Source of the DNA: Thermodesulfovibrionales bacterium
GTDB taxonomy: Bacteria > Nitrospirota > Thermodesulfovibrionia > Thermodesulfovibrionales > Dissulfurispiraceae
DNA: 64,000 nucleotides
NCBI GenBank assembly: GCA_020062545.1
Contig: JAGUWD010000003.1
Location: 1-64,000, forward strand
Direction of reading: 5' to 3'
Positions within the stretch are counted from its first letter, which is position 1; every line of letters starts with the position of its first letter. Below the pieces are notes generated by a model. That model was not told where the DNA came from. It saw only the letters and a program-made list of their open reading frames with translations, and did no database searches. Position numbers and translations under genes: made by a program. Of this stretch, positions 3,236 through 20,810 are shown one piece after another.

Positions 3236-3523
3236 TTACCTTTCTTTTGTGAGTACCTGAAAGAGTCTTGCTATCATTACGCTGAATATCCCGCCTATGA
3301 ATGAGCCGAATGCGCCTATGATGCCAACAACTATTATTACACCCATAATCACTATGAAACTGTGCGGGGAAAGGTGTGCATTGAACATGCGGTTAAGGTC
3401 ATTGGCAACTGCCTCACTCCATCCGCCGCCGAGGCTTTTACCGAGGAGCAGGTCCATGCTGAGGGCGACTGCAACTCCCAATATCCCGCCAAATATAACG
3501 CCTATATAAAATGCCCTTCTCAC
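3236..3523 (-). CDS. Small two-helix membrane protein, unknown
   Basis: A 95-residue protein with two strongly hydrophobic segments (about 5-25 and 56-85), Gly-rich in both, separated by a polar stretch. Its ATG overlaps the stop of the upstream sigma54 regulator by 4 bases (ATGA), so it is translated together with that two-component system. I do not recognise a family. The coupling suggests an accessory membrane component of the same signalling unit, which is inference. Confidence 0.65.
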   Translation of the reverse strand: MRRAFYIGVIFGGILGVAVALSMDLLLGKSLGGGWSEAVANDLNRMFNAHLSPHSFIVIMGVIIVVGIIGAFGSFIGGIFSVMIARLFQVLTKER

Positions 3524-4869: not shown

Positions 4870-4879
4870 CTTTTTCTTT

Positions 4880-6922
4880 TTACCTGTTGTTTGTCGGTAT
4901 TGTTATAGTAAAAATACTCCCCTTGTCAGCTTCGCTCTCAACAGTCAGGGTGCCGTTCATTTTTTTGATTATATTATAGCTTACTGCAAGTCCGAGACCC
5001 GTGCCCTTTTCCTTGGTTGTATAGAACGGGTCGAATATCTTTGGTAAATCCTCTCTTGGAATACCGGTGCCTGTATCCTCGAATTGTATGATTATGTCAC
5101 TTCCTCTCATCATGCTTCTGACAGTAAGCGTCCCTCCATCGGGCATTGCGTCTATGGCATTCAGGGTAAGGTTTACAAAGACCTGTGACAGTTGGTTGCC
5201 GTCTGCGATGACATCGGGCAGAGATGGTGAAAGCTCTTTGATGATTGATATGTTCTTTGCCTTTTTATCGTACTGAATAAGATTGATGGATGTTTCTATA
5301 ATCTCATTTATCTTGCATTCCTTCGGCTCTCCTGCAGGCATTTTTGAGAAGCCGGAAAGCTGCTTTAATATTTCCGAAATCCTGTTTATATGAAAATAAA
5401 TTGTTTCGAGACTCTCTTTTTTAAATGTATCCTCTTCCATTTCTCTGAGTATCTGGACAAAGGAGAAGATGGATGTCAGGGGATTGCCTATTTCATGAGC
5501 TATGCCTGCTGCAAGCCTTCCTATGGATGCGAGCTTTTCTGAATGAATTATCTGTTCTTCCATTTTTTTCATCTCCGTTACATCCTGTATGAGCCTTATA
5601 TATCCATGGATTTCTCCGTTTACTCCTTTCACAGGAGCAGTGGTGATCTGGAAGTGCTTATCCCTCTGTCCGAAGAGGTTAGATAGAATTACCGTGTCAA
5701 TACTATCTTTGGCTCTGGTATACTCAGATGAAACATGGCAGTCAGGACAGATATCCTCGCAAGACTTGCCGGTAACATCCATGCCGGCCATATCTTTTAT
5801 CATCTGATTTGTCCATTGAATTCTGCCGTATCTGTCGATTAATACAATTCCGCCTCCTATAGCGCTGACAATGGTATTGAGCTTTTCCTTTTCACTTACA
5901 AGCTCTGCTGTTCTTTCATTGACCCTTTCTTCGAGTTCGACAGCATATTTTTCAAGCTCTTCCTTTCTCTTTGCCATCGCTTCTGCCTTTATCCTCTTTT
6001 TGTTGAATATAATCAAAAGGGTTGAAACAACGCTCGTGGTAATGAAGATGGATATTATGAGATAGGAGTAGAGTCCCATGCTATGTCTTGTGGCCGAGGT
6101 TACTTCGGAGTAAGGGGCGGACACAGCGATTATCCATGAAAGGCTATCTATGCCAACAGTGGAAAATGCAATAATCTTGTCCTCCCCTGTGGGCGCAATG
6201 TGCCTGCCATAATTGCTTGTCTTTCCCTCGATTATGCGCTTTTCGAGATCAAAGTTCATATGACATTTAAAACAGGTGGAATCTGCCTTGTAAATGTTTC
6301 CGCCAACCATTCCTGGCTGGGTAGGATGGTAGAGGAGGGTTCCGTTTTTATCCATCATCCATGCATATCCTCTGGAGCCAGATTTTATATTGCTGACGAA
6401 CCTACCGGCTATATCATTTATTTTTATGGATAGGAATATCACCCCTATCATGCCTTCGTGGTTATATATTGGAGATATGATATAGATCAGGTGCGGGGTT
6501 TCTATAATAGTAGTATTGCCGGGGCCAATATTTTTTGTCTGTTTAAGCATATTCGCAATGAAAGGTTTAGATAGATTACTGTTGTCTTCAGAAAATACCA
6601 CTTCCCCTCTGGTATTCAAAATCCCGAGACTTGTTTCGATTATTCCCTTTTTTCTCAAGGCATCATTTGTCAGCCAGTCGAGATCCCTTTTGTTCGTTAT
6701 GCCCCTCTTGGACAGCATATTGGAGATATGGCGGACATCTTGCTTTATGAAATACAGATAGGCGCTTATGTTGTCGGCTATAGATTTGGAGAGCAGAGAC
6801 TGCTGCCTGTTAAACTGCTCTGCCATTTCCATCTGGAGGGATTGCTGGAAAAAGACATTTAACGTGATAAGGGCGGAGATTACTGCTATAAGCGTGCCGA
6901 CTATTAATAAATAACTTTTCAT
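4880..6922 (-). CDS. Sensor histidine kinase with periplasmic c-heme motif
   Basis: A 680-residue kinase, taking the ATG at 6922 as start because it begins directly with the first membrane helix; an in-frame ATG 14 codons upstream is possible. Order: helix 1 (about 2-24), a large periplasmic Cache-type domain, helix 2 (about 286-308), a coiled linker, a PAS domain, HisKA with His476 in GIAHEIGNPLT, and a HATPase_c domain (DTGTGIP, GTGLGLA). The periplasmic domain contains CFKCH at 217-221, a covalent heme-c binding motif, just before helix 2. Heme-c sensor domains are known from Geobacter chemotaxis receptors. The cytoplasmic PAS also has a Cys cluster (CEDICPDC, about 388-395). With the next gene it forms a two-component pair beside a multiheme cytochrome operon. 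Confidence 0.9.
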   Translation of the reverse strand: MKSYLLIVGTLIAVISALITLNVFFQQSLQMEMAEQFNRQQSLLSKSIADNISAYLYFIKQDVRHISNMLSKRGITNKRDLDWLTNDALRKKGIIETSLGILNTRGEVVFSEDNSNLSKPFIANMLKQTKNIGPGNTTIIETPHLIYIISPIYNHEGMIGVIFLSIKINDIAGRFVSNIKSGSRGYAWMMDKNGTLLYHPTQPGMVGGNIYKADSTCFKCHMNFDLEKRIIEGKTSNYGRHIAPTGEDKIIAFSTVGIDSLSWIIAVSAPYSEVTSATRHSMGLYSYLIISIFITTSVVSTLLIIFNKKRIKAEAMAKRKEELEKYAVELEERVNERTAELVSEKEKLNTIVSAIGGGIVLIDRYGRIQWTNQMIKDMAGMDVTGKSCEDICPDCHVSSEYTRAKDSIDTVILSNLFGQRDKHFQITTAPVKGVNGEIHGYIRLIQDVTEMKKMEEQIIHSEKLASIGRLAAGIAHEIGNPLTSIFSFVQILREMEEDTFKKESLETIYFHINRISEILKQLSGFSKMPAGEPKECKINEIIETSINLIQYDKKAKNISIIKELSPSLPDVIADGNQLSQVFVNLTLNAIDAMPDGGTLTVRSMMRGSDIIIQFEDTGTGIPREDLPKIFDPFYTTKEKGTGLGLAVSYNIIKKMNGTLTVESEADKGSIFTITIPTNNR

Positions 6923-6963
6923 CTCTCTATATGATAGCAAAAAACAGCAGTATATATAAAACA

Positions 6964-7023
6964 AGTAGCCGGTGGTCAGTAGTCAGTAACCAGATATTCT
7001 CCTTCTACTGGTGACCGGCTACT
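6964..7023. repeat. Mirrored heptamer array at the thioesterase 3' end
   Basis: Left arm AGTAGCC, GGTGGTC, AGTAGTC, AGTAACC (6964-6991); right arm TTCTACT, GGTGACC, GGCTACT (7003-7023). The arms are mostly complementary and could form a hairpin of about 19 bp. The stop codon of the thioesterase gene (7019-7021, minus strand) lies inside the right arm. Confidence 0.75.
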
Positions 7024-7417
7024 GTTTTGAGGGGATCAGTTTCGCATAAGCCTCGGCAATGATTGTGCCGTTGGATGCCTTTAAAAGACGGGACCGGGCC
7101 TCGACGAGCCTTGAACTCTTCTTGATTATTTCTGCCTCTGCAATTGTCTTTTCGTTTGCCATCAAAGGCATTTTGAACCTCACATTTATTTCAGCAGTAA
7201 CAGGCATTATCCCTTCAGCTATGGCAGCCTGTATCATGGCCTCATCAAGGACAGTGGTTATTACTCCACCATGTGTTATGTCCTTGTAGCCCTGATAAAT
7301 TTTGGAAGGTATAAACTCGGTGGTGAGCCTGCCATTTGAGTAATTGAAGGACAGTTTTAAACCGCAATGGTTGTCTCTGCCGCATGCAAAACAGTAATTG
7401 TCGTCTTCGAGTTTCAT
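7019..7417 (-). CDS. PaaI/4HBT hotdog-fold acyl-CoA thioesterase
   Basis: A 132-residue protein; ATG 7417 is preferred over the TTG one codon earlier. The hotdog-fold signature is clear: a motif ITHGGVITTVLDEAM around residues 48-62 (the HGG-x-D/E catalytic region of the PaaI group), followed by strand segments with a VNVRFKxPL-like pattern. The N-terminus carries a CFACG motif typical of one branch of these thioesterases. It probably hydrolyses an acyl-CoA of unknown identity in the cytoplasm. It starts just after the rho stop codon, so it is likely read through from rho. Its stop codon and last residue come from a heptamer repeat arm. Confidence 0.8.
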   Translation of the reverse strand: MKLEDDNYCFACGRDNHCGLKLSFNYSNGRLTTEFIPSKIYQGYKDITHGGVITTVLDEAMIQAAIAEGIMPVTAEINVRFKMPLMANEKTIAEAEIIKKSSRLVEARSRLLKASNGTIIAEAYAKLIPSKQ

Positions 7418-7420
7418 CAA

Positions 7421-8683
7421 CTATTTATTCATCATCTCCAGGAACTCTTTGTTGCTTTTTGCTCCCTTAAGTTTGCTGAGCAGGAATTCCATGCTCTCAA
7501 CAGTGCTTAAAGGATTCAGTACCTTTCTGAGTATCCACATTTTGTTCAGGACATCCGGGGCAACGAGCAATTCTTCTTTCCTTGTTCCCGATGAATTAAT
7601 GTCAATGCTCGGGAATATCCTCTTGTCAACGAGTTTACGGTCGAGGTGGAGTTCCATGTTGCCTGTTCCCTTGAATTCCTCGAATATAACATCGTCCATC
7701 CTGCTTCCTGTATCCACAAGTGCAGTTGCAAGTATGGTAAGGCTGCCGCCTTCTTCAATGCTTCTTGCTGTGCCAAAAAATCTCTTGGGTCTCTGAAGGG
7801 CATTGGCATCGAGCCCGCCTGACAGTACCTTTCCGCTTGTCGGAGTTATTGTATTATAAGCCCTTGCAAGCCTTGTTATACTGTCAAGGAGGATAACGAC
7901 ATCCCTCTTTGTCTCTACCAATCTCTTTGCCCTTTCGATAACCATTTCAGAGACCTGACAATGCCTCTGCGGAGGCTCGTCAAATGTGGAGCTTATGATC
8001 TCGGCAGTGCTTACCTGCCTTTTCCAGTCAGTTACTTCTTCGGGTCTTTCATCTATCAGGAGTATTATGAGATGTATTTCCTTGTGGTTCTTTTTAATTG
8101 CCTTTGCTATAGACTGGAGGAGCATTGTCTTTCCAGTCCTCGGTGCTGCTACTATGAGTCCACGCTGTCCCTTGCCTATGGGCGTTATAAGGTCCATAAC
8201 CCTCATAGAGTAATCCTCTGTCTGGTACTCAAGGTTTACTTTTTCTGTCGGGTAATAGGGAGTAAGGTTATCAAATAACGGACGGCTTACATTGTCTTCT
8301 GGAGATTCATTATTTATGGTTTCTACTTTTAGGAGTGCGAAATACCTTTCATTTTCCTTCGGAGGCCTTATCTGCCCTGATACAAAATCACCTGTCCTTA
8401 ATGTAAACCTTCTGATCTGAGAAGGGGATACATATATGTCATCGGGAGAGGGCAGGTAACTGTAATCCGGGGAGCGGAGAAATCCGAAACCGTCAGGGAG
8501 TATCTCCAGAACACCCGAGCCATAGACATTGCCGGCCTTCTCTGCCTGCGCCTGAAGGATGGCGAAAATAAGCTCCTGCTTTCTCATGCCTGTGGCGCCT
8601 TCTACATGAAGTTCTTTTGCAAGATGTGTTAGTGCATCGATGTTTTTTTCTTTCAATTCAGAAATTGAAATGTAGTTTTCCAT
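7421..8683 (-). CDS. rho: Transcription termination factor Rho
   Basis: A 420-residue protein. ATG 8683 is chosen because AGAGAGGT lies 9 bases upstream; an in-frame ATG 8 codons earlier lacks a site. The N-terminal Rho helical and cold-shock RNA-binding domains (about 1-125) include [21 protein letters not shown]. The ATPase core shows the P-loop APRTGKT, the segment [12 protein letters not shown], the Walker B region [14 protein letters not shown] and the R-loop [11 protein letters not shown]. These match Rho closely along the whole length. It acts as a hexameric helicase that ends transcription. It is preceded by a sigma70-type promoter and a leader of about 225 bases. Confidence 0.97.
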
Positions 8684-8909
8684 ATGTTTTTTACCTCTCT
8701 GGGGCATTATGATAATTAGTTATTGAGCAAATTGGTTTTAAATAATCGCTTTTTTAATATATTAATTCTCGATGATTTATTGGCTTAATGATTTTTCAAC
8801 CAAAGATGAATTGCTTAGTTTTTGAGTTTTGCCTTTTGATCTTTGCATCTGTTTCTACGAATTATCCCTAACTCTGGACTTAATTCAGGAGGGGATAATC
8901 AGAATGACT
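8684..8909 (-). promoter_or_regulatory. Long rho leader
   Basis: About 225 bases between the predicted transcription start and the rho ATG, with no credible ORF. It contains an 8-bp stem (ATTATCCC 8861-8868 / GGGATAAT 8892-8899) and an A-rich stretch of loosely octameric units (about 8822-8853). Rho genes in other bacteria are controlled through leader termination by Rho itself; the leader length fits that, but the mechanism here is inference. Confidence 0.45.
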
Positions 8910-8968: not shown

Positions 8969-9526
8969 TCAAATAAACTCCTTTTCACACTGGGCTACAA
9001 TTTGCGCTATCTCATCTTCCGACATATCGGGCACTATAATCCTGCCGTCTTTATCTCTGTCGAGTTTCGAGATGCCAGGGAACTGCCTTTCCAGCAATTT
9101 AATGTTCAATGCCTGCTGCCTGACAATTTCGAGGAGTCTTCTGTTTTCTTCTTCCAAATTATATTTATCGATTGCAGCCCTCACTGCGAATTTTATATCC
9201 ATGTCATCCCACGGTTTTGTGAGAAACCTGTATATCTCGCCTTCATTTATTGCCTTTATTGCAGCCTCTATGCTTGCATAGCCTGTTAATATGATTCGAA
9301 TTATATAAGGGAATTGTTCACGCACCATGGAAAGGAATTCCAAGCCGGAGATTTCCGGCATTTTCTCATCAGATATAACAACCTTTACGGAATATTCTTT
9401 CAATATCTCCATGGCCTCCAGTGCACTGTTGGCTGAATATATCTGATAAGGTTCATCAATGAATACCCTCGTAAGCGAAGAGATTACATTCGGCTCGTCA
9501 TCAACTATCAGGATGTTGTCTTCCAT
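8969..9526 (-). CDS. Receiver-domain response regulator with short C-terminal tail
   Basis: A 185-residue protein. Residues 1-120 are a receiver domain with the acidic pair IVDDE, the acceptor Asp in VVISDEKMPEISG (about residue 53) and the conserved Lys in FLTKPWDD. The KPW[ND]D form is shared with four other receivers in this operon and is typical of the receivers of HD-GYP regulators. The remaining 65 residues form a coiled helix and a short tail with a DRDKDGRI turn; no DNA-binding domain is seen. It is the last gene of the nine-gene signalling operon, 1 base after the receiver-ATPase gene, so it may be an output adaptor or a phosphate sink. Confidence 0.85.
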   Translation of the reverse strand: MEDNILIVDDEPNVISSLTRVFIDEPYQIYSANSALEAMEILKEYSVKVVISDEKMPEISGLEFLSMVREQFPYIIRIILTGYASIEAAIKAINEGEIYRFLTKPWDDMDIKFAVRAAIDKYNLEEENRRLLEIVRQQALNIKLLERQFPGISKLDRDKDGRIIVPDMSEDEIAQIVAQCEKEFI

Positions 9527-9527
9527 T

Positions 9528-11957
9528 CTAAACCTCCTTTATCGTCTGCTTTTTCGTCCCGCAGAACGGGCATGTAAGCCATTCCTCCTCAAGTGGCATT
9601 TTGCAGTTATGGCATATGTTATGCCTGAACATTCCGCAGTATGGGCAGAATAAAAATTTTATATCGATCATGTTGCCGCAGTTCTCGCACTGGCGCTCAT
9701 ACTTTGTGGGAGGGCCTATTACCCTCAATAGCTCCTCCAGCGTCGTAATGCCGAGCCTTACCTTCTCTATCCCATCCTCTATTAATGTCCTCATTCCTCC
9801 TGCCTTTGCGAGGTTCATGATTTCCGACTCTTTATAATCGCTGCTTATGAGCTGCCTGAACTCATCGTTCATTACAAACAACTCGAAAATACCTGTCCTT
9901 CCAAGATAGCCTGTATTATTGCATTTGCTGCATCCCTTGCCAATGGTCACTTCCTTGAAAGTGTTCTCCGGTATCTTGAGGAGCTTCATTCCCTCTGCAT
10001 CAGGACTGGTTGTTGTCTTACAGTAGTGACATACTTTTCTTACAAGCCTCTGTGCTATTATCCCTTCAATAGCCGATGCAATAAGATATGGTTTGACGCC
10101 GATATCGATAAGACGGGTGATAGATGCCACTGTGTTGTTTGTGTGGAGGCTTGTTAAAACCATGTGGCCCGTGAGCGCTGCCTTGAATGCCACATCCGCT
10201 GTTTCATAATCTCTGATTTCTCCAACCAGTATTACATCAGGGTCCTGTCTCAGGGTTGCCCTCAATACAGATGCAAAGGACAATCCTATGCGCTCCCTCA
10301 CGTAAACCTGACTCGCATCTTCGAGGAAGTACTCGACAGGGTCTTCGATTGTCTCGAAGTTTTTTGTGGATTGGAGCATCTCGTAAAGAATGGAGTAAAG
10401 CATTGTGGTCTTGCCGCTTCCTGTGGGACCGGTCGATATTAGTATGCCTTGCGGTTTTTTTATGACTACCTCCAATCTCTGTAGGTCGTCCTGCAGCATT
10501 CCAAGCTCTGCAATCTTTTTGATGGAGGCGCCTTTATCCAGTATCCTCATGACAATCTTTTCGCCGTTTATAGTAGGCATGCTCGAGACCCTTACATCCA
10601 CGATCCTTGTGCCTGTCTTCATGGTAATCCTTCCGTCCTGAGGCTTGCGACGCTCTGAAATGTCCATCTTTGCAAGGATCTTCACCCTCGATATAACAGC
10701 AGGATGGAGATGTGAAGGTATTTTTATCTTTGTGTGGAGCATGCCGTCAATTCTGTATCTGATAATTGTATATTTGGTCTTTGGCTCTATGTGTATATCG
10801 CTTGCCTGATAACGGAGTGCCTCCATGATGATTGCATTCACGATTCTTACAATCGGTGGAATGCCAGATGTGCTTATCAGTTCCTGGACATTTATGTCAG
10901 TTTCATCTTCTTCTATGACAACATCTATCTCCTCTATGGGCTCAAACTCCAGTGTTTCTCCGATTTCCTGAATTGTTCCTGCCTCTTCTGTTTCGCCGTA
11001 AATCTTCTTAATCTGGCTGATAATATCGGAGGATTTTGCAACTACAGGAATTACCTTAAATCCCGTAAGCATGGAGATATTGTCTGTTTTCATAATGTCC
11101 GATGGGTCTGCCATAGCAATTGTCAGATTTTTTCCATCAAGTTTTATAGGAATCAATCTATTTCTCTCGCATAGCTCCCTTGGAAGAAACTTTGCTACAT
11201 TGGGGTTTACATAGATCTCTTTCAGATCCATATAATCCAAGTTCTGGTGCTTCTGAATCGCCTGAACTATTTTCGATTCTGTCGTGAATCCAAGTCGGAC
11301 TATGGCATCGCTTATGAATTCGTCCCTGTCTTTTTCTTTTAATGCCCTGCTGAGCTGCTCATTGGTGATGATGCCCGATTTTACGAGTATGCTGCCTAAA
11401 ATCCCCCTGTATTCGTCAAAGAGATTGGAGTAGGTTTTTATCTTTATCTGCTGCTCCTTTGCCAGCTCTTTTAGTTTTCTGTTTTCCTGAATAAGTACGT
11501 ATTGCTGAAGTGCAAGGCTTACGGTCAAACGCAGATCTTCGTCGTTCCATGGTTTTGTTATGAATTTATAGACAGCGCCCTCATTCACCGCGCCCATAAT
11601 CGCCTGAATATCAGCGTGGCCAGTGAGCATGATCCTTATTGTCTCGGGCCATCTGTTCTTGATCTCTCTGAGGAGTTCCGAGCCGATCATGCCAGGCATC
11701 CTGTGGTCAGAAATTACGAGGTGCACAATAGTGCTTTCCATAATCTTCAGCGCATCTACCCCAGATGTTGCAGTCAGGATTTCGTAGTTCTCATCGAGGA
11801 ATATGCGCCTGAGCGCCTGGAGCACATTTTCCTCATCATCAACAAAAAGCAGAGTGAACCTTTTCTGTTCGGGAACGGTTATTTCCCCGGAACCGATTAT
11901 CTTGTCTCCGGAGTCCTCTTTCTTTACTGCCTTGAATAATTCAGCGTATTTTGCCAT
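9528..11957 (-). CDS. Receiver domain fused to a GspE/PilB-type secretion ATPase with zinc ribbons
   Basis: An 809-residue fusion. Residues 33-150 are a receiver (FVDDEENV, Asp84 in VISDHRMPG, KPWND). A helical linker leads to a GspE/PilB N-terminal domain (about 190-330) and a hexameric ATPase domain: Walker A GPTGSGKTT near residue 506, the Asp box around FETIEDPVEY, Walker B GEIRDYETADVAF and His box region GHMVLTSLHTNN. A CxxC...CxxC zinc site typical of GspE follows (CHYC, CSKC). The end has two more zinc-ribbon knuckles (CENC/CPYC, CHNC/CPFC). Such ATPases power type IV pilus extension or type II secretion, so this one seems directly gated by phosphorylation. The ribosome site is AAAAGGA before ATG 11957; the start overlaps the upstream kinase by 17 bases. 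Confidence 0.9.
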   Translation of the reverse strand: MAKYAELFKAVKKEDSGDKIIGSGEITVPEQKRFTLLFVDDEENVLQALRRIFLDENYEILTATSGVDALKIMESTIVHLVISDHRMPGMIGSELLREIKNRWPETIRIMLTGHADIQAIMGAVNEGAVYKFITKPWNDEDLRLTVSLALQQYVLIQENRKLKELAKEQQIKIKTYSNLFDEYRGILGSILVKSGIITNEQLSRALKEKDRDEFISDAIVRLGFTTESKIVQAIQKHQNLDYMDLKEIYVNPNVAKFLPRELCERNRLIPIKLDGKNLTIAMADPSDIMKTDNISMLTGFKVIPVVAKSSDIISQIKKIYGETEEAGTIQEIGETLEFEPIEEIDVVIEEDETDINVQELISTSGIPPIVRIVNAIIMEALRYQASDIHIEPKTKYTIIRYRIDGMLHTKIKIPSHLHPAVISRVKILAKMDISERRKPQDGRITMKTGTRIVDVRVSSMPTINGEKIVMRILDKGASIKKIAELGMLQDDLQRLEVVIKKPQGILISTGPTGSGKTTMLYSILYEMLQSTKNFETIEDPVEYFLEDASQVYVRERIGLSFASVLRATLRQDPDVILVGEIRDYETADVAFKAALTGHMVLTSLHTNNTVASITRLIDIGVKPYLIASAIEGIIAQRLVRKVCHYCKTTTSPDAEGMKLLKIPENTFKEVTIGKGCSKCNNTGYLGRTGIFELFVMNDEFRQLISSDYKESEIMNLAKAGGMRTLIEDGIEKVRLGITTLEELLRVIGPPTKYERQCENCGNMIDIKFLFCPYCGMFRHNICHNCKMPLEEEWLTCPFCGTKKQTIKEV

Positions 11958-13320
11958 TTAGTTTTCCTTTTAGAGGTAATGTGATTATGAAATTTGAGCC
12001 TTTTCCCACCTCGCTCTTAACTTCAATATTTCCTCCGTATTGGGATATGATGTCATAGGCCACTGTCAGACCCATCCCTGTGCCTTTGCCAACATCCTTT
12101 GTGGTAAAGAATGGCTCAAATATGCGGCTCTGTATCTCCTGGGGGATGCCCTTACCGTTGTCAGCAATGGAAATAACTGCATTGTTACCCTGCTGTTCTG
12201 TTTTAATCGTTACTATAATGTTATCGTCCTTTGAATAGAGGGCGTTTAACAGGATATTCAGAAATGCCTGGCATATAAGGCCGGGATTGCCGAAGAAATC
12301 AGCAGCCTGACCATAATGTCTTATGATCTTTGCCGACCTGTTTTTTATCTCATTTGAAAGCACGCTGATGGTATTATCCAGTTCTGCATTAATACTCATT
12401 TCCCTGTCTGCAGACTCATCTATGTGTGAAAAGCCCTTCAAATTGGCTACTATGTTTTTTATACGCTCGGCTCCATCAACGCTTTGTTTAATGAGATCAT
12501 TGATGTCTGACATTATAAAGTCGATCTTCAGCTTTTTGTATAATTCATCCGCTTCTTGCCTATTGTCTATCGCCTCTTGCCTTTTATAGAATTCGAGCAT
12601 CTCTGTAAAATTTTTAACATATTTTTCCAAGGTGTTGAGATTACTGTATATGAAGCCTATTGGATTGTTGATCTCATGGGCAACGCCTGCTGCGAGCTGC
12701 CCGATGGATGCCATCTTCTCCTGCTGGAGCAGTCTTGTGTATGCCCTTTTCAATTCCTCTGTCCTTTTTAGCACCTTCTGCTCAAGGGTTTCTGACAGTT
12801 CTTTATATTTCTTTTCCGAGGCTGTCAGGTTTTTGTTGATTTCAAGAAGCTCTTCATAAGACCTTTTTACAACAGTTGTATGCAGTTCTGTAGTGAATAC
12901 CCGTTTTACGATATTCCTTATTATGATATTGAGCCCTGTGAAAGCGGTCTCCATAAGACTTGAGAGCATCTGTCCGTTCAGCGTGCCGGATGAGGATACG
13001 AAGAAGAAGCCAATGGTCTCTGCCTCATACCGGATGGCAGCGAGCCTCCAAATAATACCTTCCTGACTTGCCCCCTCAAGTATTGTTTTTTTGCTATCTA
13101 CTTCTGCTATCGCCTTCATTGCCTGAAGTGGCAATTCTTTTGCATCAGGAATATTGCCTTCCGACCATAGGAATTTGCCCTTGTTGTCTGTAACAGCCGC
13201 AAGGTCTGCGCCTGCCCCTGCTATTACCTTTAACAGGGGGATCACATCAGGAGCGCTTAGTATGTCTTTAAGCCCCATCTCGGCCCCGAGTGAAAAATCT
13301 ATCCTGTCCGTTTGTTCCAT
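11941..13320 (-). CDS. Soluble histidine kinase
   Basis: A 459-residue kinase without membrane helices. The N-terminal 160 residues are a sensor-like domain of GAF/roadblock size that I cannot name. A coiled coil (about 160-210) leads to HisKA (GVAHEINNPIGF) and HATPase_c (NGKGIP, GKGTGMGLT). It has no receiver of its own, unlike the two kinases upstream, so it may phosphorylate the stand-alone receivers in the operon. The loop between the two HisKA helices holds an insertion (about residues 246-258) encoded by five heptamer repeats at 12549-12583. Packed between the GTPase gene (1-base gap) and the ATPase fusion (17-base overlap). Confidence 0.88.
   Translation of the reverse strand: MEQTDRIDFSLGAEMGLKDILSAPDVIPLLKVIAGAGADLAAVTDNKGKFLWSEGNIPDAKELPLQAMKAIAEVDSKKTILEGASQEGIIWRLAAIRYEAETIGFFFVSSSGTLNGQMLSSLMETAFTGLNIIIRNIVKRVFTTELHTTVVKRSYEELLEINKNLTASEKKYKELSETLEQKVLKRTEELKRAYTRLLQQEKMASIGQLAAGVAHEINNPIGFIYSNLNTLEKYVKNFTEMLEFYKRQEAIDNRQEADELYKKLKIDFIMSDINDLIKQSVDGAERIKNIVANLKGFSHIDESADREMSINAELDNTISVLSNEIKNRSAKIIRHYGQAADFFGNPGLICQAFLNILLNALYSKDDNIIVTIKTEQQGNNAVISIADNGKGIPQEIQSRIFEPFFTTKDVGKGTGMGLTVAYDIISQYGGNIEVKSEVGKGSNFIITLPLKGKLNGKIR
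12549..12583. repeat. Five tandem heptamers inside a histidine kinase gene
   Basis: CCGCTTC, TTGCCTA, TTGTCTA, TCGCCTC, TTGCCTT in perfect 7-base register on the plus strand. They encode part of the loop between the two dimerization helices of the kinase; the frame is kept. Confidence 0.7.
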
Positions 13321-13321
13321 A

Positions 13322-13990
13322 CTATTGTCCTGCCAATTCAGTGTTCACCTTTGTAAGATTTCCCGCAAACATCTCTTTTGAGAGCATATGTTTTTCTTTC
13401 AGGCTGTAGCGGGTATCGATATAATCATATGTTAGCTCCACAAGACGCTTGAATGTTTCGATCACACCCTGCCCGTATAATGCAGATGCCATGAAAACGG
13501 GTATGCCTGTGGGCTCCCATGTCCTGTGAATTTCATCTTCTGAAACAATATCCTTCAAGTCTCTTTTGTTAAATTGTATAACGAGGGGTATCTTCTCTAT
13601 ATTGATTCCCACAAGGGCGAGATTCTTTTCGAGGTTCTCGAAGCTTTCAACATTGTTCGCAGATTCTGAAATCTGGGAGTCCGCAATAAATGCAATACCG
13701 TCAGCCCTTGTCAATACTGCCTTTCTTGTTGCATCGTGGCGCACCTGTCCGGGAACTGTATAGACCTTGACCTTTATCTTCAATCCGCTTGGTGCGGTAA
13801 AAAAGAAAGGAAGCAGGTCGAAGAATATTGTTCGGTCATCCTTTGTGTCGAGGGTCATCAAATCGCCTCTGCCTTCTATATTGAGGATATCGTGGAGCCT
13901 CAAGAGATTGGTGGTTTTTCCGGACATGGCAGGCCCATAATATACGAGCTTTAAAACCATCTTATTTTCTATTTCATCATATTCAATCAT
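13322..13990 (-). CDS. MglA-like Ras-family GTPase
   Basis: A 222-residue GTPase. ATG 13990 is chosen: AAAGGAAA precedes it and the family motif starts nearby; a start 26 codons upstream would overlap the previous gene. The P-loop GPAMSGKTTNL (about 19-29), the MglA-type segment TLDTKDDRTIFFDLLPF, the G3-like VPGQV and the base-binding NKRD are all visible. MglA proteins set cell polarity and place type IV pili or gliding motors in Myxococcus and relatives, and are switched by MglB. No MglB gene is present here. Its place next to a receiver-PilB ATPase fits a polarity or pilus-control role, which is inference. Confidence 0.88.
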   Translation of the reverse strand: MIEYDEIENKMVLKLVYYGPAMSGKTTNLLRLHDILNIEGRGDLMTLDTKDDRTIFFDLLPFFFTAPSGLKIKVKVYTVPGQVRHDATRKAVLTRADGIAFIADSQISESANNVESFENLEKNLALVGINIEKIPLVIQFNKRDLKDIVSEDEIHRTWEPTGIPVFMASALYGQGVIETFKRLVELTYDYIDTRYSLKEKHMLSKEMFAGNLTKVNTELAGQ

Positions 13991-14009
13991 GCTGTTTCCT
14001 TTTCCCTGG

Positions 14010-15317
14010 TCATGTTTTTCTACCCCAAACGAATATTCCACTCTTTGATGGGTCGAGATGGTATCCACGCTTTAATGTCTCTATGTTCTTTTCATTGAGG
14101 GTTGTTCCCTTCCTTAAGAGCAGGAGTCCTGTACCGCTCCTGACATCCCTTGATAAAACAATGCCCGGAACAAGGTCATTGGGTTTCAGTTCAACCTCTA
14201 CATTTTCTGTTTCAGGGATGGCGGCTATAGTCCCTTCATGCACCGCTTTGCTGAGGAATTGATACAGGTCTGGATCCAATTGGGTGCCGAGAATGGCCTT
14301 TATTTTTTGTAATGCGCTTTCTATATTCAGAGAGTCCCTGCCGATATTTGTCAACCTGTCGAATTTATCGGCCATTGCGATGACCCGTGAGCCAAGCGGT
14401 ATCTTTTCATACCTTAACCTGTCAGGGAATCCGTTGCCGTTATACCATTCGTGATGATGTCTTATAAGCACCCCGGCATCTCTCAGCCCCTCCACAGAAT
14501 CGATGACAGCCTGTCCTATTACAGGGTGCTTTATATATTCTTCTTTTTCTTCTGCGGAGAATTCGGTAAAATTCTTTATCAGCATGGCATCCGGGATACC
14601 TATTTTGCCGATGTCATGCAGTTGTGCAGCCACGACTGTATTTTCTGATTCCTCATAGGAAAGCCCCATCTTATGCACCATTTCAGAGACAATGGTTGCT
14701 ACATTATTCGAGTGGATATAAATGATCTTATTGCGCAGTTCAAGAAGGTTGTAAAAGGCAGAGATGAAGTCCCTGAAATTTTTCCTCAATTTTTCGTTGA
14801 GCGTTGTTAACTGTTTATTCTGTTTCGTCAGGTCCACTGTTTGCTGCTGGACATAAAATTCGAGCTCCGAGCTCCATTTTTTCAATTCTTCATTCTGTTT
14901 CCTTGTGAGCTCTGTAAGGCGCTTATTTTCCTTTTTCAGATTGTATGTTTCTACCGAATTCAGTACGGTCAGCATCAAGTCGTTGTCGTTCCATGGCTTT
15001 GTTATATACTTTGATGCGCCGCCCTTATTTACTGCATCCATTGCCGCATTGATATCGGCATAGCCTGTCAGTACAATTCTTACGGATTCGGGCTGCATCC
15101 TTCTTGCCTTTTCGAGGAATTCTGCACCGCTCATTTCAGGCATCTTCTGGTCGGAGACTATGACGGCAACCTCGTTGTTCTTCAGCATTCCGAGGCCTTC
15201 CTTGCCTGACGGGGCTGTGAGGATATTTATGCTGTCCACATCCATGAACAGTCGCTTCATGGAGCGGAGGACATTCTCCTCATCGTCCACAAAGAGGACA
15301 TTGACCTTTTCGTCCAT
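14010..15317 (-). CDS. Response regulator with HD-GYP phosphodiesterase domain (first copy)
   Basis: A 435-residue protein: receiver (1-125, Asp in VIVSDQKMPEMSG, KPWND), a long coiled coil (about 130-195), then an HD-GYP domain with HDIGKIGIPD near 237-246 and HHHEWYNGNGFP near 287-298. The GYP triplet is degenerate (NGF in place of GYP), as in many active and inactive members. HD-GYP domains hydrolyse cyclic di-GMP or cGAMP. A C-terminal segment of about 70 residues follows (LVPGIVLSRDV, LLLRKGTTLN), common in this subfamily. It precedes the MglA-like gene by 19 bases. Confidence 0.88.
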   Translation of the reverse strand: MDEKVNVLFVDDEENVLRSMKRLFMDVDSINILTAPSGKEGLGMLKNNEVAVIVSDQKMPEMSGAEFLEKARRMQPESVRIVLTGYADINAAMDAVNKGGASKYITKPWNDNDLMLTVLNSVETYNLKKENKRLTELTRKQNEELKKWSSELEFYVQQQTVDLTKQNKQLTTLNEKLRKNFRDFISAFYNLLELRNKIIYIHSNNVATIVSEMVHKMGLSYEESENTVVAAQLHDIGKIGIPDAMLIKNFTEFSAEEKEEYIKHPVIGQAVIDSVEGLRDAGVLIRHHHEWYNGNGFPDRLRYEKIPLGSRVIAMADKFDRLTNIGRDSLNIESALQKIKAILGTQLDPDLYQFLSKAVHEGTIAAIPETENVEVELKPNDLVPGIVLSRDVRSGTGLLLLRKGTTLNEKNIETLKRGYHLDPSKSGIFVWGRKT

Positions 15318-15335
15318 TTCTACCCCCTTAATATT

Positions 15336-16295
15336 CTATGAAGCCTCAAAATGTTTTTCTTCCAGGAGCTTTAAAAAAATATCCACGATTTCAGGGTCAA
15401 AGAACTGGCCCTTGAACGTTTTTAAAAACTCTATTGCCTTTTTATTGTCAACCTTATCCCTGTATGGTCTATCCGATGTCAGGGCATCATAGGTGTCGGC
15501 AACTGTTACTATCCTTGCCTCGATTGGAATATCATTGCCTTTCAATCCAAGAGGATAACCTTTCCCGTCGTATCTCTCATGGTGATAGAGTATGATGTTT
15601 ATGACAGCCTCTGGCAGTTGAGCCAGCCGCGCAACATCGGCACCCCATCTGCTGTGGTTTCTTACTACCTCCATTTGTTCTGGAGATAAAGGGCCGTTCT
15701 GGTTGAGGATGGCCTCCGGAACCCCTATCTTGCCGCAATCATGAAGCCAGCTTCCGTATCTGATATTTTTTTGCCACTCTCTGGATAAGCCTAAAGCCTC
15801 AGCTATTCTGACTGCATAATTTGCTACCCTGTCGCAGTGTCCTCTTGTATATGGGTCTTTCAATTCGACGGTCTGGGCTAAAGAGAGCAGGGTGGCCTCA
15901 TCAGCCCTTCTGAAAGATTTAATTACATCGTATCTGTGGAGTGCATTAAAAACAATCTCCTTGAAATCGTGGTCATTCCATGGTTTTGTTATGAACTTGT
16001 ACACTTCTCCTTCATTGATGGCGTCTATTGCAGATTTCATATCCGCGTATGCGGTTATCAGGATTCTTACGCTGTCGGGAGATACCTCTTTTGCAGTTTG
16101 CAGGAGTTCGATCCCTGTCATTCCAGGCATGCGGTTGTCAGAGACAATGACAGAGATGTTGTTGTTCTTTAAGATATCCATGGCCTCAGAGGCATTCATG
16201 GCAGTCATGATCTTGATATTGCTGTCAATGAAAAGCCTCTTCAGGGAGTTCAGGACATTGGCTTCGTCATCCACAAACAAAACCGAATCATTCAT
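15336..16295 (-). CDS. Response regulator with HD-GYP phosphodiesterase domain (RpfG type)
   Basis: A 319-residue protein with the standard RpfG layout: receiver (1-120, Asp in VIVSDNRMPGMTG, KPWND) directly joined to a complete HD-GYP domain. The metal and substrate motifs are intact: HDCGKIGVPE near 183-192 and HHERYDGKGYP near 237-247, with the canonical GYP. It should cleave cyclic di-GMP when switched by phosphorylation. Its start overlaps the stop of the receiver-PAS gene by 4 bases. With the more divergent HD-GYP protein next to it, it gives the operon two possible c-di-GMP outputs. Confidence 0.92.
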   Translation of the reverse strand: MNDSVLFVDDEANVLNSLKRLFIDSNIKIMTAMNASEAMDILKNNNISVIVSDNRMPGMTGIELLQTAKEVSPDSVRILITAYADMKSAIDAINEGEVYKFITKPWNDHDFKEIVFNALHRYDVIKSFRRADEATLLSLAQTVELKDPYTRGHCDRVANYAVRIAEALGLSREWQKNIRYGSWLHDCGKIGVPEAILNQNGPLSPEQMEVVRNHSRWGADVARLAQLPEAVINIILYHHERYDGKGYPLGLKGNDIPIEARIVTVADTYDALTSDRPYRDKVDNKKAIEFLKTFKGQFFDPEIVDIFLKLLEEKHFEAS

Positions 16296-17101
16296 AAAAT
16301 ATCATCCTCCCTGCTGAAAACAAGGATTATGCCCTTCTGATCATCGCTATAATCCATTATAGTACCGGAAAGCCTGCCGTAAATACCGTTTATTTTTACT
16401 TTTTTTATTGTTTTGTCTTTGTTCTTGACTTCCTCAATAAAATCTTTTATGTCCTCCGGCAGTCCGTCTGAGACAGCCCTAATATTTTGGCCCAATAACT
16501 GCCAGTTGGTATTTGTAATATTGATCCATGTTGAATTGCATAAAACTATTGTGTTGTTGAAGTCGATCCCTATAATTCCCACAGGCATTGCATCGAGGAT
16601 GTTCTGCTGTATGGACAATGCCTTGCTTCTGAATTCGAGATGGGATTTTAGCTCTTTGTTGAGCCTTGTTAGTTCATCATTTTTTCTCTGGAGCTCTTCT
16701 GTGAGTTCCTTATTTTTCTTAAAAAGATGATACCGTTCAATTGCATTTGAAATGGTAACCTTTAATTCTTCATCATTCCATGGTTTGGGAACGAATTTAT
16801 ATATCTGTCCTTCATTTATGGCCGAGACGATAGCTGCGGTATCGGCATAACCTGAAAGCACGATCCTGACGGTATCAGGCCATTTTTTCCGTGCCTCTTT
16901 GAGGAAATCTACCCCGTTCATGCCGGGCATACGGTAGTCGGATATGATTATCTGAACCCCCTCTCTTTTGAGAATTTTCAGCCCGTCTTCTCCTGATGCT
17001 GCTGTGAGGATTGTATACTCCTCGTCAAGAAAGAGCCTCTTCAGGGCATTCAGGACATTCTGTTCATCGTCTACACATAATATTTTGATTTCTTCATTCA
17101 T
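16292..17101 (-). CDS. Response regulator with PAS domain
   Basis: A 269-residue protein; ATG 17101 has GGAG 7 bases upstream and starts 1 base after the previous stop codon. The receiver (1-120) has LCVDDEQNV, the acceptor Asp in IIISDYRMPGMNG and KPWND. After a coiled coil (about 125-165) comes a PAS-like domain (about 170-260) with ILDAMPVGIIGIDFNNTIVLCN. There is no kinase, cyclase or DNA-binding domain. It may be an adaptor that combines a phosphorylation signal with a ligand or redox signal. Confidence 0.85.
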   Translation of the reverse strand: MNEEIKILCVDDEQNVLNALKRLFLDEEYTILTAASGEDGLKILKREGVQIIISDYRMPGMNGVDFLKEARKKWPDTVRIVLSGYADTAAIVSAINEGQIYKFVPKPWNDEELKVTISNAIERYHLFKKNKELTEELQRKNDELTRLNKELKSHLEFRSKALSIQQNILDAMPVGIIGIDFNNTIVLCNSTWINITNTNWQLLGQNIRAVSDGLPEDIKDFIEEVKNKDKTIKKVKINGIYGRLSGTIMDYSDDQKGIILVFSREDDIL

Positions 17102-17102
17102 T

Positions 17103-18662
17103 TTATTTCTCCACAACCGGTATTTTTACCGTAAATGTCGTTCCTCTGCCAACTTCGCTTTCTACCATTATATCTCCATTATGTTTTTTCACAATATCGT
17201 ATGCTATGCTCAAGCCAAGTCCTGTTCCCTTTCCAACCTCTTTTGTACTGAAAAACGGCTCGAATATCCTGTGTATCTTATCCTCTGGAATTCCACAGCC
17301 TGTGTCGGAAATTGAAATATAAATATAACCGCTGTCATGCCATGTCTTTACTGTAATCTCTCCCTGCTTCTCTATGGCATGTGCTGCATTGACAAGCATA
17401 TTCATGAACACCTGATTGAGCTGTCCGGGATTGCATTTTGTCAGGGGTATGTCTCCGTATTCCTTCTTCACTGTTGCCTTATATTTCAGCTCATTCCACA
17501 CGATGTTTATAGTGCTCTCTATTCCTGCATTAATGTCAGCCATCTTCCATTCGGCCTCGTCGATATGAGAAAAGCTTTTGAGGTTCTGAACTATCCTTTT
17601 CACGCGCTCCGCGCCGTCGAGAGACTCCTTGAGCAGGCTGTCCGTGTCTTCGATAATATAGTCGAGTTTCAAGTGTTTTTTTATTTGCTCGATAGATTCA
17701 TTGTTACCCGCAGCCATTATAATTTTAGTCTGGGCTTGAATAAATTCTTTGAACCTGTTGACGTATTTCCCGAGTGTGCCGAGATTGCTGATGATAAAAC
17801 CCATGGGATTGTTTATCTCATGGGCTACGCCCGCTGCGAGCTGGCCGATAGAGGCCATTTTTTCTGATTGCAGCAACTGAGACTGGGTTGCCTTCAGTTC
17901 TGCATACGCATTTTCGAGTTCCCTGTGCTGGGATTCGAGGATGTCCATCATTTTATTAAAGAGTTCGGCTACCTTGAGGACATGTCCTGAGACGATTGTA
18001 TCAGGCATGGTAAATCTGACACCGAAATCTTTATTGTCAGCGACCTGCTTTAAAAGGTATGAAATATCATCCAGTGCGAACTGGAGTTCCATTCTTTCTT
18101 TATCTATTGCCAAATTTATTATTTCGAGGGATTCTGTAATATCTTTCAATTCTTCGTTTTTCTTAAGCAGTTCTTTCTGGCTCGCCTTCAACTCTTCTTC
18201 TATATTTTGTACTGCCTCTATCGTCTGTATCTTTTCTGTAAGTATCTTATTCCTGTCCTCGAATTCCTTCAGTTGTAAAAGGTTCCTGACTCTTACTATA
18301 AGCTCTGCATTATCCACAGGCTTTACGAGGAAATCGCTTGCGCCTGCCTCAAGGCATTTAAGTCTCGTTTCTTTGTCGCCGAGGGAGGTAAGGACAATAA
18401 CCGGTATGTGCCTGCTGTCAGGGTATTCTTTAAGCCTTTTGCAGGTCTCTATCCCGTTCATTACAGGCATTAAGACATCAAGCAGGATAAGATCGGGTTG
18501 TATCTTCTTTGTCTTTTCCATTGCCTCTAAACCATTCCCCGCTGTCTCAAAATGGTATCCATAGCAGCTTACGAGGGCAGACAGGAGTTTAAGGTTTGCC
18601 TGTTCATCATCTACGATAAGTATTGTGTATTTATTTTTTTGGTTTTCTGTCTGTGAATTCAT
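17103..18662 (-). CDS. Receiver-histidine kinase hybrid
   Basis: A 519-residue protein with an N-terminal receiver (ILIVDDEQANL, LILLDVLMPVMNG, FLVKPVD), a coiled coil (about 125-185), a linker domain and a C-terminal HisKA (GVAHEINNPMGF) plus HATPase_c (DTGCGIP, GKGTGLGLS). It lacks membrane helices. Its last 90 or so residues before the ATP lid are identical to those of the next kinase gene, and the DNA there differs only at silent positions (17305-17587 against 18901-19183). Unlike its two relatives in the operon it has no heptamer insertion in the HisKA hairpin loop. Confidence 0.9.
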   Translation of the reverse strand: MNSQTENQKNKYTILIVDDEQANLKLLSALVSCYGYHFETAGNGLEAMEKTKKIQPDLILLDVLMPVMNGIETCKRLKEYPDSRHIPVIVLTSLGDKETRLKCLEAGASDFLVKPVDNAELIVRVRNLLQLKEFEDRNKILTEKIQTIEAVQNIEEELKASQKELLKKNEELKDITESLEIINLAIDKERMELQFALDDISYLLKQVADNKDFGVRFTMPDTIVSGHVLKVAELFNKMMDILESQHRELENAYAELKATQSQLLQSEKMASIGQLAAGVAHEINNPMGFIISNLGTLGKYVNRFKEFIQAQTKIIMAAGNNESIEQIKKHLKLDYIIEDTDSLLKESLDGAERVKRIVQNLKSFSHIDEAEWKMADINAGIESTINIVWNELKYKATVKKEYGDIPLTKCNPGQLNQVFMNMLVNAAHAIEKQGEITVKTWHDSGYIYISISDTGCGIPEDKIHRIFEPFFSTKEVGKGTGLGLSIAYDIVKKHNGDIMVESEVGRGTTFTVKIPVVEK

Positions 18663-18698
18663 ATGGTAATTATATAACTATTTTTATTTCTGATTATT

Positions 18699-20810
18699 TT
18701 ATTTTTCCACAACAGGGATTTTTACAGTAAATGTTGTGCCTTTTCCCACTGCACTATCGACAATTATATCACCATTATGTTTTCTCACAATATCATAAGC
18801 TATGCTTAAACCGAGCCCTGTTCCCTTTCCGACCTCTTTTGTGGTGAAAAACGGCTCGAATATCCTGCTTATATTTTCTTTAGGTATTCCACATCCTGTA
18901 TCGGAAATTGAAATATAAATATAACCGCTGTCATGCCATGTCTTTACTGTGATCTCTCCCTGCTTCTCTATGGCATGTGCTGCATTGACAAGCATGTTCA
19001 TGAACACCTGATTGAGCTGTCCGGGATTGCATTTTGTCAAGGGTATGTCTCCATATTCCTTCTTCACCGTTGCTTTATATTTCAGTTCATTCCACACGAT
19101 GTTTATAGTGCTCTCTATTCCTGCATTAATGTCAGCCATCTTCCATTCGGCCTCGTCGATATGAGAAAAGCTCTTGAGGTCCTGCACTATCTTTTTTATC
19201 CTCTCTGCACCGTCAAGGGATTCCCTGATAAGGTTGCCTAAGTCATCTATTATGTAATCGATCTTCATGGATTTTTTTAATGCATCCACTTTTTTCAATG
19301 TCTCTCCAAACTCCGAACTCTTAACTCCTAACTCCCCGATTGCCTCTGTCTGTGCCTTTATGAACTCCGAGAGCTTACCAGCATACTTCTGAAGTGAGCC
19401 GAGATTGCTCATTATAAACCCCACTGGATTGTTGATTTCATGGGCGATGCCTGCTGCAAGCTGGCCTATGGATGCCATTTTTTCGGACTGTATTATCTGA
19501 GATTGTGCTGACTTGAGTTCGGTATAGGCAGTTGCAAGCGATTCTTCTGCCTGTTTCCGTATGATGATACCAGCAAGGGTATTGGCAGCCGATGTTAAAA
19601 ATGTTTCCTCTTTCTGGGTATATTTATGTTTTTCCTTCAGGTATATATTTATTACTCCGAGTATTCTGTCTCCGAACATTATGGGCACACAATAATGACC
19701 GTGAGGATATATTCCGCTGTATATTATTTCGTGGCGTTCATTTATATGGCTGGCGAATTCTATCTTTCGAGATAGTGCTGCCTTTCCACAGAGACATCTG
19801 CCGAACGGGATTCGAGCGCATGATTTTTGTATCGGCTCTGAGAGCCCTTTCTGTGCTTTCATTACCAGTACTTCTGGATCATCTTCGACAAGAAATATAC
19901 ACCCCCTTGATTCAAATGCAAGCCATGGAATTGTAAGGAGGGTCTCAAGGGTATGGTTTAGGATTTCGATAAGGGGCATGTCTTTAAGCGAGATATTCAA
20001 AATAGAGTTCAGAGCCTGTTGTATGTCATGGGCCTGCTTTATCTCTTCTTCTACATATTTGCGGGTTGTTATATCCCGGAGTGTTAGTATGTTGGCAATT
20101 ATGCCCATATTTTTTACAGCGTAGATGTTGAAATTGAAAAATCTTCCGTTTGTATGGGAATATTCTATGTCGCCTGAATCGCTGTTTTTATAGCTGAATC
20201 CACTCTCTTTAAAGACATCCTGCCATTTACGACCCAATAGTTCGGGATAGGATTTTCCGGTTAAGGTAGTTAGTATCTTATTGCATCTTAGAATATTATC
20301 CTTTGAATCGATCAACAGGACAATGTCACTTATACAATCAAGGGTCTGTTCCCACTCCCTCTTGGCATTCTCAATGGCCTTAATTGTTTCTGTCAGGATT
20401 TCGTTATTTTTCTTGATTTCTTCAAGATTTTTAAATTGTAGGAAATTTTTGATTCTTGCAATAAGTTCTGTACTGTCCACAGGTTTTGAAAGGAAGTCGT
20501 TAGCGCCTGCATTCAGGCATTCGATCTTTATCTCTTTATCCCCGAACGCAGTAAACACTATGATAGGAATATGTTTGGTCCCGGGGTCTTCTTTCAGCCT
20601 TTTACATGCCTCGATCCCGTTCATTTCCGGCATTAAGATATCCATTAGTATGACATCCGGGTCGGTTGCCTTCGTCTTTTCTATGGCTTCCACGCCGTTC
20701 TGTGCGATTTCGAAATCGTATCCGTAATAAGCTATCAGCGTGGTCAGAAATTTCAGGTCTGTAGGGTCATCGTCGACCACGAGGATTCTGGGCTTTTTAT
20801 CTTCGGGCAT
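18699..20810 (-). CDS. Receiver-PAS-GAF histidine kinase
   Basis: A 703-residue soluble kinase and first gene of the operon. Domains in order: receiver (1-125, VILMDILMPEMNG, FLSKPVD), PAS (about 155-265), GAF (about 280-420, with a RIPFGRCLCGKAA segment and several Cys), HisKA (GIAHEINNPVGF) and HATPase_c. The GAF domain's CLCG and the preceding Cys could bind a ligand or sense redox state, but no known pattern fits. A heptamer array (19309-19336) adds about 10 residues in the HisKA hairpin loop. The ribosome site AGGAAG lies about 10 bases before the ATG. Confidence 0.9.
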   Translation of the reverse strand: MPEDKKPRILVVDDDPTDLKFLTTLIAYYGYDFEIAQNGVEAIEKTKATDPDVILMDILMPEMNGIEACKRLKEDPGTKHIPIIVFTAFGDKEIKIECLNAGANDFLSKPVDSTELIARIKNFLQFKNLEEIKKNNEILTETIKAIENAKREWEQTLDCISDIVLLIDSKDNILRCNKILTTLTGKSYPELLGRKWQDVFKESGFSYKNSDSGDIEYSHTNGRFFNFNIYAVKNMGIIANILTLRDITTRKYVEEEIKQAHDIQQALNSILNISLKDMPLIEILNHTLETLLTIPWLAFESRGCIFLVEDDPEVLVMKAQKGLSEPIQKSCARIPFGRCLCGKAALSRKIEFASHINERHEIIYSGIYPHGHYCVPIMFGDRILGVINIYLKEKHKYTQKEETFLTSAANTLAGIIIRKQAEESLATAYTELKSAQSQIIQSEKMASIGQLAAGIAHEINNPVGFIMSNLGSLQKYAGKLSEFIKAQTEAIGELGVKSSEFGETLKKVDALKKSMKIDYIIDDLGNLIRESLDGAERIKKIVQDLKSFSHIDEAEWKMADINAGIESTINIVWNELKYKATVKKEYGDIPLTKCNPGQLNQVFMNMLVNAAHAIEKQGEITVKTWHDSGYIYISISDTGCGIPKENISRIFEPFFTTKEVGKGTGLGLSIAYDIVRKHNGDIIVDSAVGKGTTFTVKIPVVEK
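19309..19336. repeat. Four tandem heptamers inside a histidine kinase gene
   Basis: AACTCCG, AACTCTT, AACTCCT, AACTCCC in perfect register. They encode a GELGVKSSEFGE-like insertion in the same HisKA loop as the unrelated heptamer array at 12549-12583. Confidence 0.75.

Follow-up and report, generated by a model that had tools for sequence, protein, structure and literature searches.

Nine genes on the minus strand at 8969-20810 of the window (the whole stretch of DNA that was analysed, 64,000 nucleotides) form an operon whose order recurs across several phyla. We put the probability at about 0.5 that this operon is a conserved signalling module controlling a type IV pilus-like machine whose genes lie in other parts of the genome. 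Domain content and gene order lead us to infer a possible coupling of c-di-GMP and polarity to motor output, and the operon may represent an undescribed way of switching surface pili on and off. The open-access papers searched contain no description of it.

Operon layout and gene starts

The nine open reading frames have the coordinates given in the preliminary description, and Pfam reproduces its inventory: seven Response_reg domains, three HATPase_c/HisKA kinases, two HD_5 (HD-GYP) proteins, one small GTPase and one REC-MshEN-T2SSE-zinc-ribbon ATPase. The widest intergenic gap is 36 bp (18663-18698), again as described. Transcription runs from gene 1 to gene 9, with the REC-PAS-GAF-kinase first and the lone receiver last; all gene coordinates below are on the minus strand.

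Two of the gene starts were revised. Orthologues of the GTPase gene 6 begin at M27 of the GTG-initiated reading frame (14068), which corresponds to the ATG at 13990; the GTG start is thus wrong, the apparent 59-bp overlap disappears, and the corrected protein has 222 aa (13322..13990). The start of gene 3 is probably the ATG at 17101 rather than the TTG at 17116, because the alignment with orthologues begins at residue 6 of the TTG reading frame.

Conservation of gene order

A close MglA orthologue is present in 21 of 176 genomes of the same order, host included. The MglAs of the 20 relatives are 67-90% identical to that of the host, sharply set off from other MglAs, which reach at most 47%. 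Around them the same block is repeated: kinase(s), REC-PAS, one or two REC-HD-GYP, MglA, kinase, REC-ATPase, lone receiver. Departures from it amount to minor losses or insertions and a single rearrangement, whereas the genes on either side vary from family to family.

A scan of named genomes yielded 80 loci, a set that shares some contigs with the 20 relatives. These include Desulfuromonadia/Geobacteraceae, Desulfobacteria, Myxococcota-labelled MAGs and one Deferribacterota-labelled MAG; more divergent forms (MglA identity 55-61%) occur in Beta- and Gammaproteobacteria. MglA is followed immediately by a kinase in 70 of 78 loci, and the ATPase comes within three genes in 67 of 74. A REC-HD protein lies upstream in 59 of 69 loci, and 60 of 69 have a plain REC or REC-PAS protein. 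MglA, kinase and REC-ATPase make up the constant core. Conservation of the order, proposed earlier as a check, therefore holds in the 20 relatives and across phyla. A tblastn search of plasmids found no operon-like relative.

The operon MglAs group in a single clade that excludes nine further MglAs of the order (support 100) and within which rows labelled Nitrospirota, Thermodesulfobacteriota and Myxococcota are partly interleaved. Together with the patchy distribution, this interleaving suggests that the operon has spread by transfer or been repeatedly lost.

Receivers and kinases

The seven receivers carry the signatures first reported for them, KPW[ND]D in five and KPVD in the two that are kinase-linked, and all retain the acidic pair, the phospho-acceptor Asp and the Lys. 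Identities of 44-56% among the five, 60% between the two and 27-34% across the classes bear out a division into two classes. The KPVD class comprises the receivers of gene 1, a 703-aa REC-PAS-GAF-histidine kinase (18699..20810; Pfam, receiver class), and gene 2, a 519-aa REC-histidine kinase (17103..18662; Pfam). The KPW class comprises those of genes 3, 4, 5, 8 and 9, a paralogous set in which the phospho-site is kept in each member. Gene 3 encodes a REC(KPWND)-PAS protein of ~269 aa from its probable ATG (16292..17101; Pfam, orthologue starts), and gene 9 a lone receiver (KPWDD) of 185 aa with a conserved C-terminal tail (8969..9526; Pfam, conservation).

The two classes had been read as input and output. 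This part of the proposal is weak because the KPVD receivers are not conserved: many orthologous operons include receiver-less kinases. In the closest relatives, an extra REC-PAS paralogue, 47-48% identical to gene 3, lies between the two REC-HD-GYP genes (L041 1570-2379; L042 12470-13261).

HD-GYP proteins

The full catalytic signature is kept in just one of the two HD-GYP families. In the family of gene 4 (319 aa, 15336..16295; Pfam), HDxGK is present in 39, HHE in 40 and GYP in 39 of 41 members, the signature of an HD-GYP phosphodiesterase. In the family of gene 5 (435 aa, 14010..15317), HDxGK is retained in 33 of 55 members and GFP replaces GYP in 46 of 55. Gene 5 also matches the curated NosR family of c-di-GMP phosphodiesterases (NCBIfam NF053512) end to end, with 460.9 bits against a cut-off of 400. 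It differs from that family in sitting inside an MglA operon and in the GFP variant of most members; no NO sensor for it was identified here.

The MglA-type GTPase

Group 1 MglAs are defined by an Arg beside the G2 threonine, TVPGQ in G3 and NKxD in G4 (PMC4316618). Gene 6 has R53-T54, TVPGQ and NKRD; in an alignment of 20 MglAs, R53, T54, N141, K142 and D144 are invariant and Q82 nearly so. The arginine finger, Mg ligands, catalytic Gln and MglB-contact strand residues have been mapped in M. xanthus MglA (PMC6785124), and R53, T54, F56, F57, D58 and Q82 of gene 6 correspond to its catalytic and MglB-contact residues.

The host genome (Nitrospirota, 2.6 Mb in 47 contigs) encodes a single MglA and gives no match to Robl_LC7/MglB anywhere (E 0.001), so that an MglA/MglB GTPase-GAP pair is absent from it. 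Most same-family operon carriers likewise have no Robl_LC7 protein. MglBs are present in other carriers, several of them beside a second MglA.

A candidate GTPase partner fused to kinase 7

Gene 7 encodes a cytoplasmic histidine kinase of 459 aa adjoining MglA (11941..13320; Pfam HisKA/HATPase_c, gene order). The preliminary description listed it as a kinase and overlooked its N-terminal domain. The first ~140 residues have no consistent Pfam family match, although the domain is conserved from Nitrospirota to Gammaproteobacteria, with a probability of 99.9% between the profiles of two versions (hhalign). An AlphaFold2 model of residues 1-165 (12826..13320) has a pLDDT of 89.6 and an a-b-b-a-b-b-b-a topology. 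In VIA-align, M. xanthus MglB is the best match to this model (Z 14.3, 2.4 Å over 113 residues) and T. thermophilus MglB the second; the top 24 rows are all of the roadblock fold, and GAF-like IclR comes next at Z 12.8. The earlier statement that MglB is lacking thus stands for annotated MglB and for Robl_LC7, but the predicted fold of the kinase 7 N-domain is closest to MglB.

One reading of this domain is that kinase 7 is a roadblock-type GTPase partner fused to a histidine kinase, through which a Ras-like GTPase would directly gate a phosphorelay to a receiver-fused pilus motor, in one operon and in several phyla. We hold this tentatively, at odds short of even. The same module may instead contain an ordinary GAF/Cache-like ligand sensor in kinase 7 and an MglA without a roadblock partner, a serious possibility, short of even odds, to which several observations point. 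The CodY GAF domain tops the Foldseek matches, and a model of a reduced version of the domain does not tell the two folds apart, GAF and roadblock both scoring Z 5-7. The sole profile match among solved structures, other hits being chance matches, is the PhoR sensor domain, a weak one (E 2e-4 over 68 positions). Against the MglB/Robl_LC7 profile, hhalign gives a probability of 0.2%, that is, no similarity; among MglB, PAS, GAF, Cache, REC and MglA profiles the domain matched its own distant version alone, and no Robl_LC7 Pfam match occurs in 60 kinase 7 family members scanned. Most kinase 7 orthologues lack an equivalent of the helix by which MglB binds MglA. If the domain is a ligand sensor, MglA could rely on its intrinsic arginine finger and directly contact the ATPase or a receiver. 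The roadblock-only composition of the top 24 VIA-align rows for the host version, the kinase-MglA adjacency in 70 of 78 loci and the retention of the MglB-contact strand in MglA argue against a simple ligand sensor. Given the lack of MglB profile similarity, the PhoR match and the frequent loss of the MglA-binding helix, the modelled domain is here labelled roadblock/GAF-like, and it may bind MglA.

Elsewhere in the order, a 410-aa protein (L141 616-1848) combines a receiver-like N-terminal part with a C-terminal Robl_LC7 domain, a further roadblock fusion.

The receiver-fused ATPase

Gene 8 encodes an 809-aa REC-MshEN-GspE/PilB-type ATPase with a C-terminal double zinc ribbon (9528..11957; Pfam T2SSE 1.2e-127, alignment). 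Its receiver (residues 37-145, 11523..11849; Pfam) has a conserved phospho-acceptor Asp, and the phospho-site is kept in aligned orthologues. Every one of the 65 ATPases that were scored end to end has a receiver; the five ATPase pieces that scored without a receiver belong to split genes at four loci. Gene 8 has MshEN and T2SSE in common with PilB/MshE-type extension ATPases and differs from them in the N-terminal receiver, the zinc ribbons and the MshEN region (residues 184-325, 10983..11408; Pfam), where the Arg of both c-di-GMP motifs (two RLGxx... motifs) is absent in every aligned orthologue. Loss of both arginines has probably weakened canonical c-di-GMP control. Weak binding may nevertheless persist, because single charged-residue changes in MshE reduce affinity at most fivefold (PMC5013675). 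Taken with the conserved receiver, the alignment raises the prospect that phosphorylation may have replaced c-di-GMP as the switch of this ATPase. Gene 8 scores 559 bits with TIGR02538 (PilB equivalog), below the cut-off of 675.65. A 2024 review of PilB control does not contain the term "receiver domain" and mentions a REC domain for FimX only.

The Walker and other T2SSE motifs are invariant in orthologues across phyla. This argues against a reading in which the REC-ATPase is a signalling ATPase that is no longer a motor, and in which the operon governs c-di-GMP, biofilm matrix or transcription instead of pilus extension. Such a role, which we consider unlikely, would fit the absence of a platform gene near 100 loci and the six ATPases for two platforms in the host genome; the abstract of PMC5544727 also reports that Myxococcus PilB has a part in exopolysaccharide signalling.

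Two loci carry the ATPase in two reading frames. At L044 10198-13451 the frames overlap in coverage (residues 1-563 and 296-804), perhaps through partial duplication, and at L059 14839-17268 the protein is broken at residue 653 by a frameshift or an assembly error.

Pilus genes of the host

The operon itself contains no pilin gene, as first noted, and no relative has pilus genes inside it; T4aP genes, the search for which had been suggested, are present on other contigs of the host. Contig 45 carries a pilin with a kinase and sigma-54 regulator pair (PilS/PilR-like) next to it, and PilC; PilB and PilT are adjacent on contig 17. The preliminary description would have been undermined by an order conserved in no relative and a genome without type IV pili or type II secretion; with the order conserved and T4aP genes present, this is clearly not the case.

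The genome encodes six GspE/PilB-type ATPases and two PilC/GspF proteins, so the operon ATPase has no platform of its own. With both host PilC/GspF proteins as queries (E 1e-10), no homologue was found in 100 loci; the ATPase must therefore either work with a machine whose genes lie outside the operon or serve as a signalling protein. The operon had been called self-contained, which is apt in part and fails for the motor, there being neither a platform nor a pilin gene in it. PilT-family matches occur in all 175 genomes of the order searched; co-occurrence of the operon with T4P is thus uninformative, and its presence in 21 of 176 genomes makes it dispensable for T4P.

A second secretin-ATPase-GspF-pilin cluster, on contig 15, raises the alternative that the output is a T2SS/MSHA-like pseudopilus and not a T4aP. 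As this cluster has an ATPase of its own (L188 5404-7050), we judge this improbable.

Proposed mechanism

If the operon does control a type IV pilus-like machine, kinases 1, 2 and 7 would phosphorylate the five KPW receivers. The main output would be the GspE/PilB-type ATPase, whose own receiver would replace or supplement c-di-GMP binding as the switch; once phosphorylated, it could dock on or power a PilC-type platform, the presumed pilus output. In parallel, the receiver-HD-GYP proteins would lower c-di-GMP, and the REC-PAS protein and the lone receiver might serve to buffer phosphoryl groups or to direct them. The MglA-type GTPase would set the place or time of these events. Its partner is probably kinase 7, by a putative contact in which the N-terminal domain would read the nucleotide state of MglA or stimulate hydrolysis. 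The view that paralogous two-component genes have merely accumulated at this site, loosely and without a shared function, might draw on the patchy distribution in the order; an order conserved across phyla amid unrelated flanks already contradicts it, and it has next to no probability.

Relation to known systems

In M. xanthus, the response regulators RomR, FrzS and AglZ work with MglA (PMC4316618), and the abstract of PMC9481161 states that MglA-GTP stimulates T4P assembly. The operon resembles the MglA/MglB/RomR module in its Group 1 catalytic and contact residues and in having response regulators alongside MglA. It differs in being one operon rather than scattered genes, in lacking MglB, and in including kinases, HD-GYP proteins and a receiver-fused ATPase. 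Actinobacterial conservons (CvnA-D) also join a histidine kinase and an MglA-family GTPase in an operon. Their roadblock is a separate protein, whereas here a roadblock-like domain is perhaps fused to the kinase; they contain a Group 2 GTPase and CvnC, without receivers, ATPase or HD-GYP (PMC4316618), as compared to the Group 1 motifs here and the absence of Robl_LC7 from the host genome. The operon is set apart from both because MglB is missing, the GTPase group differs from that of conservons, and neither system, as described, has an equivalent of the receiver-fused ATPase or the HD-GYP proteins. The Geobacter Esn electrode-sensing network was considered and rejected as a match, being a different MCP/CheW/CheA/diguanylate cyclase system.

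The operon bears on how MglB-less MglA GTPases are controlled and by what route their state reaches the pilus motor; the Myxococcus parts are scattered over the genome. Here one conserved operon unites kinases, GTPase, phosphodiesterases and a receiver-bearing ATPase. If the ATPase is indeed switched by its own receiver, this would add a mode of control beside c-di-GMP binding and accessory proteins. The operon occurs in the named isolates Geomonas, Geotalea, Trichlorobacter and Janthinobacterium, and its core genes in Noviherbaspirillum, making phosphotransfer, GTPase binding and single-gene deletions directly testable.

Local variation

Downstream of the operon on the same strand (3520-8707) lie rho, a 4HBT thioesterase and a dCache-PAS kinase/NtrC-like regulator pair. 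Three relatives (G011, G026, G027) share this flank, and the position is thus inherited within part of the family. The tail of gene 9 (8972-9088) is partly conserved, reads DRDKDGRII here and faintly resembles a calcium-loop motif. In Candidatus Magnetomicrobium (L048 7242-16079, the same place as L064), the REC-ATPase gene precedes the sensor kinase instead of coming after kinase 7. In Trichlorobacter thiogenes, kinase 7 is followed by several more kinases, and the stretch concerned (L101 10001-20642) does not contain the ATPase. The divergent, mostly proteobacterial operons contain a protein of ~280-310 aa that looks, by eye, like an HDOD protein (L126 3525-4379; L129 5780-6625; L130 3450-4304; L134 979-1830; L140 3315-4247).
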